64,000 nt of DNA from Apostichopus japonicus (lineage: Eukaryota > Echinodermata > Holothuroidea > Aspidochirotida > Stichopodidae), in assembly GCF_037975245.1 (NCBI RefSeq), contig NC_092583.1:14673264-14737263 (forward strand), written 5' to 3'. Of the stretch, positions 16,756 through 45,100 are shown piece by piece. How positions within the stretch are numbered: position 1 is the first letter of the stretch; every line of letters starts with the position of its first letter. The translations under genes were made by a program, and so were the position numbers. The notes under the pieces were generated by a model. The model worked only from the letters and a program-made list of their open reading frames with translations. It searched no databases and was not told where the DNA came from.

Positions 16756-17470
16756 ATAACCCAAACCCAAACCCTAACACCTAACCCTACCCCTAAGCCC
16801 TAACCTACCCCTAACCCTAACCACTAACCCCTAACCCTAACCCCTAACCCTATTCACTAACCCCTAACCCTAACCCTAAGCTAAACCTAACCCTAGGCTA
16901 ACCCTTACCCTAACCCTAAGCTAAACCTAACCATAGGCTAACCCTAACCCTAGGCTAATTCTAACCCCTAATCCTAACCCGAACCCTAGGCTAACCCTAA
17001 CCCCTAACCCTAAGCTAACCCTAACCCCAGGTTAACCCTAGGCTAACCCTAACCCCTAACCCTAGACTAACCCTAACCCTCGGCTAACCCTAACCTAGGC
17101 TAACCCTAAGCTAACCCTAGGCTAACCCTAACCCTTACCCTAAGGGCCTAGGCTAACCCTAACCCCTAACCCTAACCCTAGGCTAACCCTAGCCTTACCC
17201 TAACCCTAAGCTAATCCTAACCCTAACTCTAACCCTAACCCTAGGCTAACCCTAACCCTTACCCTAACCCTAGGCTAACCCTAACCCTAGGCTAACCCTA
17301 ACCCTAGGCTAACCCTTACCCTAACCCTAACCCTAGGCTAACCCTAACCCTTACCCTAACCCTAGGCTAACCCTAAGCTAACCCTAGGCTAACCCTAAGC
17401 TAACCCTAACCCTAATCCTAGGCTAACCCTAACCCTAGGCTAACGCTAACCCTAACCCCTAACCCTAACC
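16756..17470. repeat. Degenerate interstitial telomere-like array (CCCTAA/TTAGGG)
   Basis: About 715 bases are almost entirely CCCTAA hexamers on the plus strand (TTAGGG on the minus), interspersed with AGGCTAA and AAGCTAA variants. A common 17-base cycle is CTAACCCTAACCCTAGG. The array is bounded on both sides by the inverted arms, so it is internal, not a chromosome end. Confidence 0.95.
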
Positions 17471-28100: not shown

Positions 28101-31100
28101 AATGACTGGATATTACTTTCTAATCAAGTACAACAACATATGCTGTTACTCGAAGTATGGCAGATCAGAGTCAATTAAATAATTCTTTTTTGATATTTAC
28201 TTTCTCTCTTTTTTTGGGGTGGGGAGGGGGAGAGGAGTGGGGCATGTAGCATGACAGCTTTCTACTAATTTATCAAATACAATAAATAACTCTCTGCTCT
28301 CTCACCTCTAAATTACTGAAGAGAAAGTGCATGATGTTGTGACACATTGGAAGAATCTGTGTATTGAGGGCTCTGCAGAGATCACCGACCAATCCCACGG
28401 CAGCCAGGCAGACAGAGGACTCTTCGTGATTTTGAAGGCCAGAATATAGAACCTGTTCAAAGTGCTGCATGTACTTCAGAAACTCTGGACCGAGGACTAA
28501 AAGGGGAAAACAAAATTGAGAAGAGATGATATAACTATCATTCAGATATCTCCCTTAACAGGTAATATCCAATGCCCCTTCTTCCTCTGTGGCTTTGATT
28601 GCCATTGGGATTAAATCTGCTGATTATAAACACTGTAAACTTCATGACTGGCTGTTATGGCAAATCTTCTGAGATAAACTGGTTATCATATTAACTACAA
28701 ACTGCAAAATTACACCTTGCTAGAGAAACTCCTAATTTACACTCTCCGTACAGGATTTGGCCAGTCCAGTGTCGGAGCAATCCCAATGGGACTGACATAA
28801 TGAAATCTGTTTCACAAGAGTCACTCATTGACCCCCAACACCCCCCCCCCCCAAAAAAAAACTCCCAACAGCAACTACTGCATTTTGTCACCCTTTTGAA
28901 ATGACACGTGCCACTATTAATGCTATCATGTAATTACTCCACAGCCATAGGAACTTCCTCTAAAGTAGTACTCGCAACACAGACCTCACTGCATTGGGTG
29001 TAATGTCCATTATTCCAAACCAAGTAATGCTAAATCCTGAATACAGAAGTAACCATGCCTACCCCACAGATTCGATGTTAGGATTGTAACTACGCCAGGG
29101 ATCAGAACAATAGACCATTGATTAGGTGACTTTTAACTTTTTTCTTTATTATGTTATCAGAGCCAACGATGGTAAAAGAATGATGACCAATGACCATAAA
29201 TGTTATAAATATCATGTTAATATAATCTTATAAATATAATTTATATAATATATATATATATATATATAAACAATATTACATCATATAAATATATAATAAT
29301 ATAAATAAATATAATAAATAAATCAATATATATATAAAAAATATATAAAAATATATATAAAATATATAAAAAATATATAAAATAATATATAAAATATAAA
29401 AATAAATGAATAAATATTATATAATATAAATATATAATAATATAAATAAATATAATTAATCATGTTATAAAATAAAATAAATATAATGTTATAAATAGAA
29501 TTTCTTTTTAACAGTTCACCTTCTACCAAAGTTCCGACAGCTACAAATGCATCCTCCTGGACACCACCTCCAGCTGCTCCCACACTGCTCTGAAACATCT
29601 GTAAGAGAGCTCTCATGACATCGTCAGAGATCTTTAAGGCATCCTCTCGTTTCATCTTTCTAAGGACGCTCTACGGGTGATGAAGAAGAGTACGAAACTC
29701 GCATGAAACCATCTTTCAATGGCCGACCGTTTTGCCCTTTTAACAACTTTACACCATTTTTTTTTCTAATCTCAAGGGAATAAAGTTATGCCAAAATGAA
29801 GCAAAAAGTGAAAAAGAAACTAATTTTTTTCATGTTTCTATATGTGTCTTTAACATTTTAGTATGTTTTAGCCTGTTTGATGAAGTATATAACAACCACA
29901 ACACCCAAGGTTTTCTGGCTCTTTTAACTGCCCCTGAATTCAACTGTAGGACTTGTAATGAGGACATGACCAACGAACAAAATACCCAAATAGTCCTTCC
30001 GATGCTTTGCCTCGTGAATAAAACACTTTTACAGAGAATATTTTGAATACTTTGTAATTTTTAAGATATGCATATTTTTTGTTCGTCATAAAATAATTAA
30101 ATTACTAATCTTCTGCATGCCAAAAACTGCAATGGACCTTCAATCTCTTGATCGATTTCGCGATCTTGTGATGCATTTTTTGCTACGTTAAACTACAAAT
30201 ATCATTTCCTGTTCCAGGAATGCTTTTAGGGGCAAAAATTTCTGTTAGCATATGATACTGGTACCATAGGGTGGCATACTCCTATGAAAGTCTATATCCA
30301 TCCGCTCGATTGTTCTCCTTCAGGAAAAGTGCCAAAAAGCAGCAGGAGAACATCTTTTTTGACCTGTTATCAATCATGATCTAGTATTTTGTGGCTTGCA
30401 TGTTGAAGAGCATGAATGGAAGGAAGTACATGTGGTGAGAAAATTGGGTCAATTGAGGCAATTTTAGACCCCTTTAGGCCTCCCAGGAGCAGCATAGGAA
30501 AATTGTTTACTACTGAGTGAAGAGGTTTGTTTACAAGTGACCAAAACTTCCGTCTCGGATTGCAAAAAATCTACATGGTCATGATACAAAAAATTAGTGG
30601 TGCCATGAAAGGCCAACTTGTCAGCTATCCGGTGATGGGTAGCGTTTAGCTAGTGAAAACTTCTATATAGACTTAAAGACCACATTGCTTTTGTGATTTA
30701 GTCTATAAGTCAATGAGGGCTTTTAATGGGCGTATGCTACCATAGAGATGCTAAGAACTTACTTGCAAAGTAGCACAAAGGAGAGACTGTAAGTCATTGT
30801 ACTGCATCCTATCCATGGCCGTCTGGACTCGTGACTGGAGGCAAAAGATCATAAGAAATTACATCAAATTACATCTCAGACAGGTACCCCCCCCCTTCCC
30901 TACTACTGATAAGTACTCAATTCCGAAATCGTTTTTCTCCACGATCCATTTTTTTGGATTATTTTTAATGGTTGATACAATTTACTCATTCTCAGTTTCC
31001 TTTGAAATCGGTGCAAGTTCTTGTTATTGAGAAATGTCGACAATCAATTGCAAGGCAAAAATTCTCTCGAGTCGAGTACATCTTAAGTGTTCCATGTTTA

Positions 31101-36100: not shown

Positions 36101-39100
36101 CATTTTAAAGTCAACAAAACGGTTATATTTATATTATAACAAACCTGCACGAAAGGTTTTTCATGTGACAAGGTCATGAGAGGGGTGGCAGGGGTTTGGG
36201 GATGGGGGATTGGTTACAAACCTTAAAAACCCTGACAGCAAGTTCTGCATAAACATCTTCTGCAAGATGTAGTGCAATAAATTACCTATTGTTCTAAAAT
36301 TGAGTGTGTTATCATCACTTAATATTATTATTTGGTTGGTTTACCCTATTTACTTCATTCATCTATGTTCTCATACATATAGTATCAACTAGGCTGCTGA
36401 CATCAATGTAGAGTATGTCACTGGGTAACAGCCTGGGAGGTATATAAGAGAAGGGCACAATAGAGTGAGATGTCTTACTTCTTGCATTTCAATAGTTAGA
36501 TCCATTTCTTCATCACATATATTCGACCAAAACTCAATTCCTTGCAGAGCGATTTCATCCACAGGGCTCTTCATAGCTTCGACAGATATCTGAGAAAGAA
36601 AGGACAAAGCATGTCTGAATATGAATATGCATGTTAAGGACAAATATGAATATGCAAGAGGTAGGACAGATCTGAATATTCATTGTTATAGCACATAACT
36701 GAATATGCATGCCAACAGGAATAATCTCACAATACTATCTACACCTGTACTAGGGACTATCCATAGGAAATGTGCTTTTTTGTGAATGATTGAGTTCTAC
36801 TGTTTGTGGAAATGCACTTTCTATATTACATATCCTTACATGTAAGCCTAACTGTATATAATAAGGTGATTAACTGAGAGTGCACTGTTGAGGGCAAATC
36901 TCTAGATGCATGACTGCAGAACAAATCTGGTAATTTCAAATCTGAACAGAAGATCGACGTCTAAATGTATGCTACTATAATTGCTACTAAATGATGACAG
37001 CTCAAAATTAATTGAAATATTAACCTACACTAAGTACTGTGAACTTGATACTACAGTAGTTGACTAATTAATTAATGACTCAGCATTTCATTAATCACTT
37101 AATCTAAACATCATGATAATAACACTGAACACAGTGCTACTTAGGCTAAACAGCAACTAAAAACGGCTCATAGAAACTTGGCTGTACCAACGATTTGCCT
37201 ATTCCAATGCCCGTCATTACTTCCACTGCATGTGAATATTCATGCCAAGTTTTTTTAAAATTTAATCATTAATGAATATTTATGAAGATAAACTCACAGC
37301 AAAGAGAGCTGGTCCCATGTAGCTTTCCATATGTTCATAATAAAGGGAAACAATCTTGACAAGACACTGAAGGGCAGCCACTTTAACTTGGTTATCTTTA
37401 CACTGGGTGGCTTCACATGTGACCTGCATGATGTAATGTCTCTCAATCTGTTGAAACAAAGAATGAATATGCAGTGGATAGTGAGTGAACCTTCAACCAA
37501 TCAAAACACAACAACAATAATATACAATATATAAACAATATCACTAAGATTGTTCACAGAAGCTAGTCACATGTGACATGTCACTTCTACTTTAAGTGAT
37601 TAGGTTAAATCCCTCTCGATGTTCGTTTACAAATTCACTGTCACGTGACAAAGACTGACCTGTTTCTGTTTTCATGTTATTGACATGACTTAAGTTTAAT
37701 GATAACACTACCAACAATGTGATTGTTGATTTTGTCACTCTTCCAACTAATAACGCATCCGTCTTCAATAAAAACATCTGCAGCCAGGATTTAACGTTTC
37801 AACCAGCTACGTACAGTACATGAATCCCTAACACATACTCCAACAATTATAATTTGAATGGAAAATGGTTTCCTTTCAAAGCAGCAGTTGTATTGACACT
37901 ACATATTATCTCTCTCTCTCTCTCTCAGTAAACAATGATGGATCTAGAGCAACTAAACAAATGATTTCCTAGTGCTGTGACTGAAAATGTCAAACAATTT
38001 TTCAACTACAATTACTAGAAATCTGCTTGGTTTCCACATAAAAATTGAATTGGGGGATACAAAATGTGGATATTAATACATAACTGGTAATGATTTGAAA
38101 CAAAGTACATTATTTGACTAGTTATTTTAAAACTTTATGAAGCTTGACTGTTGTAAACATACAAATGTTTTCTGTGCACACAAACATGCTAGAATAGCTA
38201 TGGACTTGTGTTGCAATTTACAAATAAAATGCTACATTCCCTGCATATAAACTGTCCATTAAAATGAGTAGAAAAACAACCAGGACGTACAGATTCTAAA
38301 ATGTTCACCGGTCTAGTGAAAGTTAGCTGAATGACTTCAATGTTTGTAACTGAGAGAGTTAAGGAACCACGTCCAAAGTAGAATGCTGGGGGGGGGGGGG
38401 CACTTCACTAACATGAGATGTTAGATAAGCATTAAACTTTATTGCCAAGATCGTATGTACATCATAGAACTATAACAAATAAAACAAGAAAAAGACAAAA
38501 AAAGTCATCCTAAGAATCCATGTTCAATACTCACCTCTTTTTCAAAATTGGATTTAGTGAATTCCAAAGAGTTGAGGAGAGCATTTGTAGCCGCTAACTT
38601 TACTCGATTACTGTTGTGAAAGAGAAAGCAAACAACTCAGTTAATATTTATGTATAGAACAGAAAGCCAAATGGAGAAGATACATGAAAAGCTTGCAATT
38701 TTCACATACACAGCTGGGGTGGAGTTATGGACTTCACTGTGTATCACTGTTAAATCTCGGTAATCCGTTCATCCCTGTTCATCGATCCATCCATTCTAAT
38801 GAATCATTCATTCACTATTTATAAAATTTGTTTTTAATCTCCCAGTCACTTTTCTGTGCATAATTAACAGCAGAATATGACTTCTACACAACATAATGCA
38901 GGAGATCCACGTAGAGACCATGTACAACATTTATGTGTGAACTCTTCATTACATCATTTCATAACATATTTCTGAATTTATTGAAATTTCACATCCATGA
39001 GTCTCCATATAATCATACTCACTTTTCTTCTTCTTTTCGTACACCTTGTACAATTGCTGTCAATATTTTATTTGAATGAATCTGAATGTACTCTTGTTCC

Positions 39101-42100
39101 TATAAAAAAAAAAAAAAACAGGGAAAGAGAAAAAGGATAAAATAACATAATTTTTTAAACTGAAACATCTTTTCTTGTGCTGTGTACACAACTACCGACT
39201 TGCCTCCAGTCCCCCAATTGCACATTTATATCATACACATTGAAAATGAAAATTACTCATATAACCAAACAGCACCATCATCAAAACTGAAAGTAAGGCT
39301 TACAAAAGTAATCACAATTAAAAATACTTCAATTCCAAGATGAGTTACTTTTAATACCAAACAAACTTTTAGTTATTTCGCACAGAATGAACAAGTTAAA
39401 AGAACACAAGTACTTAAACGACAACATTCAGGTCTTTTCTTTTTCTTCCATTTTCCGTTTTCCTCATACTGTTATATTTTTTAATAGACTACATCTACCA
39501 TCCTTTAATGACACATTTACAATTTACAATAAAAGTTCGTTGATCTCAGTATTTTTCAACTTTCACTGGATTTCTTCCGTACCTATACACTATTTTATGG
39601 TCATATCTCTTTGGTGTACCCATTACTGATAGTTAATCTGAAAGGTACTTTAGAACATTTTTAATTAATACCTTTAAAAAGTCAACTATATTTGTACATT
39701 GTGAAAACGAAATTCACAGGATTTCGTACTTACACTTATTACTCTGTTTTAATCATAACCTGTGGCACTTCTTTTCTAAGCTTTGAATTGAACATTTTCA
39801 TGTCAATTTTCTCATTCATCACTTGTTACAAAATACAACAACAACATAAAGTGTGGACTATTATCTTCTTGGTATTTTGTTTGGCTCCTTTAAATGTATG
39901 TTAGATTGATCATGAGTTGATTGCAAACGGAGCAGCCGTTAGATTTGATGGTGGCAGTTTAGTCAATAACATAACCTCTCCTCCAGCCCCTGTTATACAC
40001 TGCTGTATACTGACACACACTTCCGAAAGTGCAACTAGCAGTGATGTGTTTACCAGCAGTGTTGTGTTTACTAGCATCGATATAGCACAACCTCTTTTAT
40101 CATGCCCTGTCTGTTACATTACTACATAAAATATGCCCTCATCTTTCATCGACAGGAAGGGAATGAATTGATGTGACTGTTAAAACCAAATTACTCATTC
40201 TGCAAATTCAGTCAACCCTTTGGACTCTGTTATACATATTTTCTCTATAGATTAAATACAGCATCCTACGAACAGCTTTATGGCTTTGGAGTTTGGATTC
40301 TGCAATTTGCACGGAGGTTTGAGGTACATGATATACAGCCAAATGGTCCAAAAATAAGGAAATTTACTGAAAATATATTTGCATCCAGTTAAACACACAA
40401 GTGAGATCTTTCCTGGCAAAGTCTTGGGCAAAACTATTTTTGAGAATGCTAGCTGTGAAGCTATTATGTACAACAAAAAGAAAATGAAAATCATTTACTT
40501 TTTGTTTTACAATGTTTAAACGTATTCGTGTTATAGCTTTATACTAGGCCTGAATCTACATACTAATGGTCAGGTCACTGTCATAATGCTAGTGTACAAG
40601 AAAAAAGCCCCCAAAATAGTTTTACATCATCACATAAGGCACAATCACAGACTCTTTCATTTTTACTACATCACTTCCGGCTACATAAATATGTTAAAAG
40701 AAAAACAAGACAAAAACAAATGATTTAATTTAATGATGTGTGACCATGACATTGTTTTGTATCAGGATTGAAACAGTAGGGCTAATTTAAAATAGGACAG
40801 ACAAACCAGCTAATTGACAATAAGACAACTCACAAGCTTTCCAACTTTCTGAATCACCTTTGCAATAAGACAACCTCAACACAAAGGTTGTGGTCACCTC
40901 CAAGAAAATAAGAAATATTTCTTGTAAAGGCAAAGCAATCATAATTATAACATTGTATGTACACAGGCATACAGACTACTATGTAATAATGGTATTTATT
41001 TAAATTATCTTCTCTACTGGTATGTAACCATGTTGTACTAACAATACAAATGTTACCAAGGAACTCCTATCGATATGTAACCATGTTGTACTTACAATAC
41101 AGATGTAACCAATGACCTCCTATCGATATGTAACCATGTTGTACTTACCAAAGATCTCCTACTGGTATGTAATCATGTTGTGCTTACAATACAGTAACCA
41201 AAGAACTCCTATTGATATGTAACCATGTTGTACTTACAATACAGATGTAACCAATGACCTCCTATCGATATGTAACCATGTTGTACTTACCAAAGATCTC
41301 CTACTGGTATGTAATCATGTTGTGCTTACAATACAGTAACCAAAGAACTCCTATTGATATGTAACCATGTTGTACGTACAATACATATATTACCAATGAT
41401 CTGCTATCGATATGTAACCATGTTGTACTTACCAAAGATCGCCTACTGTTATGTAATCATTTTGTACTTACAATAGAGATGTAACAAATGACCTCCTATT
41501 GATATGCAACCATGTTGTGCTTACAATACAGATGTAACCAAGGAACTCCTAATGATACACAACCAAGTTGTACTTACAATACAGATGTAACCAATGACCT
41601 CCTATCAATATGTAACCATGTTGCACTTACAATACAGATGTAACCAATGACCTCCTATCGATATGTAACCGTGTTGTACTTACAATACAGATGTACCAAG
41701 GAACTCCTAATGATACACAACCAAGTTGTACTAACAATACAGATGTAACCAATGACCTCCTATCCATATGTAACCATGTTGTACTTACAATACAGATGTA
41801 ACCAATGACCTCTTATCGATATGTAACCGTGTTGTACTTACAATACAGATGTAACCAAGGAACTCCTAATGATACACAACCAAGTTGTACTAACAATACA
41901 GATGTAACCAATGACCTCCTATCGATATGTAGCCATGTTGTACTTACAATACAGATGTAACCAATGACCTCACTATTGATACGTTAAGCTCTTCTTGTAC
42001 TTACAATATCTTGACAGATGTAACCAATGGCCTCCAAGGATGCCTCTTTGATGTTGTCGTACGCCTCTGGCGTCCTCTCTCCTAATTCAGAGACGTTCTT

Positions 42101-45100
42101 CACAAGCTGGTCTATGAGTTCTGGCCATTTGTCGGCAGGTATTTCTGCACATGCTATCCCAGCAACACACTGTAACATATGGACAAATACTAAGTGAATA
42201 CATTTGGTGTATTCAAGATTGTTAATATTATTCAAGGTGATGGAACTGGTACCCTGGAACCTGGTGGACCGACCTTAAAAAATTACTACCCGGTCCAAGC
42301 CTTTACTACCCGATCCGAGAATTCGTAAAAATCACTAATGTCGTCCTCCAATTTTCAGTTAGTTTTATTGGAATGATGCAGAAGAAAAACCTCCATGTGT
42401 ATTCTTCCATAATTTCATCATTTAGTGACATTCTTTTTTCTCTTGATGTGTTTAAGGGTATATTTGTTACTTTTTCAACCCCTGAGAAAGATTTGATCAA
42501 TAATGTTAGCTTCCTTTTACATGTGTACACTGGACTGTATAGCCTAAGTAATATCTCCGCATTATGTGCTTGCACACTTTTAATGCAAGAAAACTTGCCC
42601 TTTGTACTCTTGGACAGGTCATGTGTTGACCACCCCAGTGTCAAATTTGGTGGAATGGTCCCACGAAAGTTGGAGAGAACTTTCACATACCTGAAAGAAC
42701 CAAGACCGACTGAAATCAGCAACTTAGCAAACCCAGGAGCAAAGTTTTGGACTGTTCCCCATCACTAATTATACAATATCCATTCAGAACTTAGAAAGGA
42801 AACCGGACAGACGTAGTGGTGTTTTGTCACAAGACCTTTCCTCCATGTCGGAACTGGGGGCATGGTTTGCTCTTTGAATTTAAGGTAATACATGAGGAAT
42901 GACTTCTTGACAATGTATAGCACTTATCTGTCTCTTGCATTACTTAATCGATATATTTTGAAAAGTTCAATGGCACATGTGCCACCAAATCAAAAACATG
43001 TTTCTTGTGCATTCTACAAACCCCTAAACAAGGGTATCACCTACCTGGGCTGCTTGGCTTGGCCTGCTGGTTTCAGTGCCAAGTGCACTAAGAACCTATT
43101 TGGAGAAGATACAAAAGAAAAATAGAAGGAGCAGAATTAAACTTCTCATTAACTTACAAAAGGTAATGAATGATTGTCTTGGTTTTGTCTTTCCTTTCTT
43201 CTGGTCAACAAAAAAAGGTGGTAACTGACAGAGTTGTTACGAGTTAATTCTTTTCCAGTTTGAGGTCACCACTAGTAGCTTTAATATACACGCTTAAGCC
43301 GTAAACAATCTTGTAAACTTGAAATTAATCCCATTGCAACTGACTTCCATGGTAGTATGCAATCTCCTTCAAAAGGAAATTTAACCTAATAGCATATCTC
43401 TAAACTTTTCCCAGAACTGTTTTTGTCTTTAGACAAGGGAGAATAGTGTTCGCAGGTAAAGCATAAAGTTGTTGGGATATTCACAATTTCACAGGCTGCA
43501 ATGGCCCGATGCTACCCAACTACTGGGTATGACCACTAACCTGACATTTCAATGACCTTTGAACACTTTTAAGATATCAGGGGAAGTATGTTATGCATGA
43601 GTCTAGAACACTCATTACTTTATTGCTTCAAATAACTTGGTTGGATTTACTCACTGCAGCTTTGACTGTTCCCCTAACTTCATCTGGCAACTTCATCCAT
43701 TGTTGTTGGTGGTGGAGGCGCACAAGTGGGTCTTTGGATGTGAGGTGATTCTTGAGTTGTAACCCAGCCGCAACTCGGGCTACCGGGGAATTTGCGACTG
43801 CTGCTAGAGCCTGAGAGAGAGCTATTAAAAAGCCAGGCTGCCAAAGAAAGAAAAAACACCATTACAAAATGTTATATATGAAGAAATACTACAAAACATC
43901 GTTAGCTTTTAATCTAGGCATGTTTTCACGATGGAACTGTACTAGAATATGTTTTTGAAACAGAAGGAAATAATTCTCAATGAAAAGTTTTGCAGGGAAA
44001 GACCTGACAGAAATGCAACTTGTTTTGATTATTGTATTCTGATCTTCTTATGAATACATAAACAATGTACCACAGGTTGTCTTTGCCATGAAAATTGAAC
44101 GGAAAACTTCACAAACAAGTTTATAAGATTCACCTAATCAAATGCTTTTCAGCATAAGTACACAGAAAAAAACCTGAATAATCCCAACAGTTTGGGAGAT
44201 CTGGCTCATCTTTCATCAGAAAGGGCACAGATTTTGACAATGGAATTGGAACTTTCTTAGAGAGCTTGAAAATAAAAAGAGTTAGCAACATGACAAAGAC
44301 AAATAATTGCACTAGGCCTGTGATAGGATGACTCCTCCCTGTAGAGCTTCATAGCAAACATCAACCACATCTCACCAGATCTGTTTGGGCAGCAGTTTCA
44401 AGAAATGCTTGCGCAGAATCCAATTCACTTTTATCTGGAAAGGAAACAATTACAAAAAATATATTAGTATGCAAATTGGTGCAACTAAAATTTTGTAAGT
44501 TACTAACTCATTTTCAAGATTGAATAGTAGGTTAGGAAATAAAACCTTTTGTTACTTTCAAATTTAAATCTTGAGTTTTGTATTTGGTCAAGTGTTAAGA
44601 AGACAAGTCTCACAAAAACGAGCTTTGGGAGGTTTCATAAAAGTTTCATAAAATATAGCAATTGATTTGATTTGTTCATTAATTAGGCTAACATGAAAAT
44701 TAATTGGCTGAATGATGGGAAGAAAGATTGGGTACTGGACAAAGTGGTCGAATTCCGTACAAGGAAGTTGGACCTTAAGTGTCCATACTTGTAGTATAAT
44801 ACAAAAATACAACATTAATACTTTCTATCAACTAAGGTAGGCAGATACATGGTGCTATGTAATGAATGTCACAGAATCATTAATATGCACCTTGGCCTAC
44901 TTTTTCTCAAACAATTCCAAAGAAATGCTGATCAAGAAGAATGCCGCTGCATGGTTTCGAAGGTAGCTTTAAACTTCATGACTCCTGTAGTACTAAGGCG
45001 GATACAAACTAGGTGTGGGTGAGTAAACCTATACGGGTCCTCATTGTAACTTCCTGAGCAGGCCTACCCTTCATTATTTTTAAAATTTTGATACAGATAT

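Follow-up and report, generated by a model that had tools for sequence, protein, structure and literature searches.

A Tandem Array of the KPNB1 Exon 5 End and Its Splice Donor in Apostichopus japonicus, with Similar Arrays at Other Genes

Behind exon 5 of the importin beta-1 gene (KPNB1) of Apostichopus japonicus, the end of that exon and its own splice donor are repeated in a tandem array within the following intron. We assign a probability of about 0.78 to the reading that this is a near-neutral minisatellite, seeded across the exon-intron boundary and amplified from one altered copy, in which the first donor is used almost always and leaky RNAs are destroyed. What is new here is that an exon end is also copied in at least 6 of the 35 donor-word arrays that we sampled elsewhere in the genome, including those at KRI1, at a gene that we take to be VPS39, and at an STK33-like kinase. 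The window, to which all coordinates without a contig refer, is the whole stretch of 64,000 nucleotides that was analyzed (NC_092583.1, positions 14,673,264 to 14,737,263).

Array Layout at KPNB1 Exon 5

KPNB1 lies on the minus strand, where tblastn with human importin beta returns 22 exon matches, from 49660 to 25036, that cover nearly the whole protein; three additional weak rows at the gene are not exons. Coding exon 5 (42005..42169, minus strand, 165 nt, phase 0 at its end) was located by tblastn with the same protein, and its boundaries were read in the sequence. The exon matches importin beta-1 in the PDB with an E value of 3e-14, and when used as a query it yields one match in the genome; its peptide, one of ten exon peptides run against Pfam, had no match above the cut-off. 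The donor starts at 42004 and opens intron 5 (39100..42004, minus strand, 2905 nt), which separates QDI from EQEYIQ. The array sits within this intron and, at 961 nt, makes up about one third of it.

The first unit in the row is the exon's own. In this terminal unit (41974..42035, minus strand), the final 31 nt of exon 5 are followed by the donor presumed to be functional and by the first intron bases. Copies were delimited by wraparound alignment, which finds 19 of them after the exon's own unit (42035-41974), each made up of exon-like, donor-like, and intron portions; together they form the tandem array (41013..41973, minus strand). The alignment thus bears out the 19 tandem copies in intron 5 proposed in the initial annotation, and, with the exon's own unit at the head of the row, it supports the proposal that the exon 5 boundary seeded the array. 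The unit length of 53 bp given there holds for 10 of the 19 copies; the full range is 42-55 nt, with five copies of 42-45 nt. Two three-unit blocks of 158-159 bp (41603..41919, minus strand) are 97.5% identical, as expected from a later block duplication, and two blocks of 142 bp (45 + 44 + 53; 41068..41351, minus strand) are 99.3% identical and represent the most recent one. Such near-identical blocks are the usual sign of stepwise block duplication. Searching the genome with a query from the array, by a method that skips very common words, revealed no copy elsewhere: all eight matches fall within the array or the exon unit. The array is therefore without the copies elsewhere that would mark a dispersed satellite or a transposon-derived repeat.

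Exon 5 as the Source of the Units

Aligned with the exon end, the consensus unit agrees at 21 of 22 positions. Two codons (6 bp) are then missing, after which the unit continues with ATT followed by GTAAGTACAA, as in the exon; these 13 exon letters are intact in 8 of the 19 copies. Against exon 5, the 25 exon-like nt of the consensus score 39, a value reached by none of 5000 dinucleotide shuffles (maximum 29), and their best score elsewhere in the window is 27. The likeness is well above chance level, and the claim that the units are copies of the exon 5 end and its donor stands. The annotation had also included the following intron bases in the unit. This is firm to about +10; beyond that point the intron bases of the terminal unit, considered separately, match the consensus no better than 588 of 5000 shuffles do, and this weak likeness makes it uncertain how far the founding segment reached.

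Copying ran from exon to intron, since the exon 5 peptide is ancient: the end of the exon 5 protein is common to KPNB1 here and to human importin beta. The TCAAGA of the exon is present in none of the 19 copies. The 6-bp loss is seen in 16 of them (15 flagged by script and the copy at 41404 by eye), and three short copies lack the whole TCAAGA stretch. Where the exon has C, all 19 copies, read by eye, have T. As the 6-bp loss and the T for C are common to the copies that still hold those places, we infer that a single altered copy gave rise to the array.

These features are consistent with a simple course of events. A short segment comprising the exon 5 end, the donor, and some intron would have been tandemly duplicated into intron 5, after which one copy would have lost 6 bp and gained the C>T change. 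Either slippage or unequal exchange may have amplified the altered copy to 19, with blocks of about 159 and 142 bp being duplicated at later stages, and the donor at the head of the row, that of the exon, is presumably the original one.

Decoy Donors and Reading Frame

GT is kept in 19 of 19 copies and GTAAG in 15, which confirms both the count in the initial annotation and the row of decoy donors that it described. The copies starting at 41919, 41760, and 41067 read GTTAG at this place, and the one at 41404 reads GTACG. Predicted U1 pairing of the real exon 5 donor is -6.8 kcal/mol. Eight of the 19 decoys equal this value, one is at -6.5, three are at -10.5, and the remaining seven pair less well, at -2.6 to -4.3. 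All three decoys at -10.5 kcal/mol are located in short units; one of them reads TTG followed by GTAAGT (41427..41435, minus strand), and the other two start at 41290 and 41148. Nine other KPNB1 donors pair at -4.5 to -12.7, with the exon 1 donor at -7.1, which makes the real exon 5 donor middling to weak. Since three decoys out-pair it, position must outweigh strength if the first donor wins.

The first decoy lies 57 bases downstream of the real donor, and reading through past exon 5 gives VSTRRA and then TAA, that is, six codons and a stop; the distance and the early in-frame TAA had both been correctly annotated. Because exon 5 ends in phase 0 and the stop follows six codons into the intron, full-length protein requires the first donor. 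If the array is a near-neutral minisatellite, splicing would nearly always occur at the first donor, the next one would be used now and then, adding 57 nt with the in-frame TAA, and the RNAs retaining these 57 nt and the stop would be destroyed. By analogy with human ABCA7, an effect of the array on KPNB1 splicing is plausible, and its most likely consequence would be a small amount of RNA that retains one unit and contains the stop.

There is no sign of selection keeping the decoys. The donor hexamer shows 7 substitution cells over the 19 copies, and as few or fewer are found in 28 of 53 six-column windows, itself included, which argues against a special constraint on the hexamer. The GT kept in all copies could hint at constraint; its columns carry no substitutions, as do 11 of 53 neighboring column pairs, the GT pair included.

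The decoys might alternatively form a functional buffer or dosage control, in which U1 occupies many sites, regulated use of the decoys lowers importin by way of stop-containing RNA, and array length sets the amount. Such a role is compatible with the U1 pairing of the 19 decoys, which is equal to that of the real donor in 8, almost equal in 1, and better in 3, and with the nonsense outcome that is built into read-through; in human ABCA7, isoform ratios are described as having changed with array length (PMC5954066). However, 7 of the 19 decoys pair worse with U1, the donor columns are no more conserved than others, a 159-nt stretch of the array folds as DNA no more than its shuffles (z +1.7), and similar arrays are found in unrelated genes of the same genome. 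Taken together, these data make dosage control improbable.

Comparison with Human CBS, Human ABCA7, and Intron Gain

Arrays with this structure have been described in human genes. In CBS, a 31-bp VNTR, c.1444_1467+7(16_21), is located at exon 13-intron 13 (PMC2630376; location also in PMC1395315), and by this notation its unit takes in 24 bases from the end of exon 13 and 7 from the start of intron 13, in 16-21 copies (PMC2630376). Because the unit spans the exon-intron boundary by notation, the CBS units should carry a donor. As far as these descriptions go, CBS and KPNB1 are alike in having a tandem unit that spans an exon end and a donor, whereas the KPNB1 array belongs to another gene and species, has a 53-bp unit with more intron, and consists of copies with a 6-bp loss relative to the exon. 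The title of a cited paper reportedly ties the human CBS VNTR to reduced enzyme activity.

The VNTR in intron 18 of human ABCA7 is described with a 25-bp unit that begins at the exon 18 donor and is present in 12 to about 427 copies; in the RNA, the second donor is used with exactly one 25-bp unit retained, out of frame, exon 19 skipping is also reported, and the VNTR is tied to Alzheimer risk (PMC5954066). As at KPNB1, the array starts at an exon donor and repeats it. Unlike the KPNB1 unit, that of ABCA7 starts at GT and, as described, leaves the exon end outside, and the evidence is from RNA for ABCA7 and from sequence for KPNB1. A donor-spanning VNTR is defined structurally by units that contain the exon's own donor and by an array that starts there, both of which we find at KPNB1. 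Judged by this structure, the KPNB1 array is of the same kind as the CBS and ABCA7 VNTRs and not a new kind of thing.

Introns can also be gained when exonic sequence that contains a proto-splice site is duplicated in tandem, as described in PMC2891723; PMC4974935 is on the same subject. That process and the KPNB1 array both involve a short tandem duplication of splice-site sequence, but at KPNB1 there is no new intron and the duplicated segment lacks a good acceptor. Intron gain of this type asks for a duplicate that supplies a usable donor and a usable acceptor, and the AGs at the KPNB1 unit junctions have no pyrimidine tract.

Similar Arrays at Other Genes

The initial annotation had raised a local amplification mechanism. 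The same arrangement recurs at unrelated genes of the genome, so that a mechanism peculiar to KPNB1 is not needed. The 35 donor-word arrays that were sampled comprise 20 found with GTAAGT, 6 with CAGGTAAGT, and 9 with AAGGTAAGT; beyond those in which the exon end is copied, 3 more of the 35 abut a donor, and KPNB1, found independently, is extra to this sample. Exons were judged by eye in three-frame translations, with a detailed reading of three of the first 20 places (L004, L013, and L020), so the counts are lower bounds. The GTAAGT sample represents 20 distinct places among 100 matches listed, all on contig C1; the 5′ edge falls outside the stretch for L007 and L009, and L018 is not an array. 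The exon end is copied in at least two of these 20, with 42 of 46 exon nt at an STK33-like kinase exon (L020, C1:17505000-17508100; PDB STK33, E 4.3e-4) and 36 of 36 at a VWA-like exon whose matches are weak (L004, C1:2181800-2185100; best PDB E 0.1, unconvincing). The array at L013, also on contig C1, abuts a donor with 6 exon nt.

With CAGGTAAGT, 61 matches genome-wide resolve into 6 arrays, and the exon end is copied in three of them. At KRI1 (L022, C2:28047400-28051000) there are 27 copies with 31 of 31 exon nt; this gene gave the one clear Pfam match among the ten exon peptides (E 7.9e-29), the other nine having nothing above the cut-off. The array at L024 (C8:23172200-23175400) has 12.6 copies with 34 of 35 exon nt, and that at L027 (C17:903800-907000), next to an open frame, has 9 copies with 37 of 39. 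The L024 gene was recognized from its exon as, presumably, VPS39. Matches to Pfam Vps39_1 are found on the same strand approximately 1.1 and 2.6 kb downstream of the donor, and one of the matched stretches contains a TAG; a PDB search with the VPS39 and L027 exons returned nothing up to E 1. With AAGGTAAGT, 54 matches give 9 arrays. In one of them (L028, C2:13555000-13556700, minus strand) a short open frame is copied at 24 of 26 nt, and two others lie directly against a donor, L035 with 5 nt and L036 with about 12. The exons at L013, L027, L028, L035, and L036 were recognized as open frames with an acceptor-like start, without database support.

Two of these loci have units of a particular build. 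The 33-bp unit at L028 contains about 27 exon and 6 intron bases and is open in one frame through the copies shown; later donors would consequently add in-frame 11-residue repeats instead of a stop. The L027 unit reads AACTTACAG, with about 30 exon-like bases followed by the donor, and might be a tandem mini-exon.

A literature search, with subscription papers mostly outside its scope, did not turn up any account of exon-donor arrays that recur as a class within a single genome. We tentatively suggest that minisatellites made of an exon end and its donor may form an entire class in this genome, numbering perhaps dozens to hundreds, to which those at KPNB1, KRI1, and VPS39 would belong. They would be tolerated as the first donor wins, each would be a natural test of 5′ splice-site choice, and length variation of some might tune output via stop-containing transcripts. 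In several genes of one organism, the real donor is followed by a series of near-identical ones, numbering between a few and about 27; such arrays provide a test of how the spliceosome chooses a donor and let one ask whether position alone protects a gene when the competing donors are as strong or stronger. Several of them in one genome also make a useful comparison for the human CBS and ABCA7 cases, and the KPNB1 array, of middling interest alone, gains from being one of several.

It can also be argued that splice donors are preferred sites (hot spots) of array formation, perhaps owing to transcription-linked breaks, and are not chance hits. The proportion of arrays with a copied exon end (3 of 6 for CAGGTAAGT and at least 6 of 35 overall), together with the 3 more that abut a donor, points in this direction. 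The genome-wide counts, however, reveal no excess: three GTAAGT words at a spacing of 40-70 give 10,103 overlapping matches versus 11,179 for the reversed control, the single GTAAGT being rarer than its reverse (441,668 versus 595,495). For CAGGTAAGT, 8,089 occurrences versus 5,476 of the reversed word suggest that perhaps a third are real donors, in which case 3 of 6 is no clear excess; for AAGGTAAGT (8,447 versus 16,338) the reversed word is a poor control.

Acceptors were considered for contrast, and none of 16 TTTNCAGG arrays with a visible 3′ edge ends on an exon start, as judged by eye. That sample consists of 18 places among 100 matches listed of 348, from which L037 (3′ edge outside) and L053 (no array) drop out, and it left out two more copies of a C2 repeat and one multi-place family. 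The genome count of TTTNCAGG is 125,417 versus 83,692 for its reverse, and the word occurs in none of the nine listed KPNB1 acceptors; the contrast therefore carries little weight. In a genome rich in minisatellites, arrays seeded at random may be sufficient, and we consider it unlikely that donors are hot spots.

Candidates Rejected and Nearby Repeats

An assembly or collapse artefact is very unlikely given approximately 1 kb of diverged units, with a mean pairwise identity of 0.77, in an assembly of 35 contigs. Least probable of all, and rejected, is the use of the units as 24-nt in-frame microexons, for which the arithmetic of the initial annotation is correct (AG before GAGG, 24 nt to GT, phase 0) but the junction AGs lack a pyrimidine tract: the 17 that were scored have a mean pyrimidine fraction of 0.50 (maximum 0.56) versus 0.83 (minimum 0.69) for nine real KPNB1 acceptors, and none of 65 AGs in the array reaches 0.70, a value that one of the nine real acceptors also just misses. 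A structured array was likewise rejected, since the 159-nt stretch folded as DNA is weaker than its shuffles, 190 of 200 being at least equal to it.

Other repeats were noted in passing. Within KPNB1, exon 9 is preceded at a distance of about 29 nt by a 26-bp tandem repeat (36618-36711), and exon 17 is closely followed by an AT-rich tandem array (29199-29503, end approximate). Elsewhere in the window, 16757-17470 holds about 700 bp of degenerate internal CCCTAA repeats of the telomere type. Finally, an 18-bp repeat of the GTAAGTATATGGACAATG type is present on contig C1 with similar flanks at three places within 1.9 Mb (L010, L014, and L015), which suggests that it is carried by a mobile or segmentally duplicated element.
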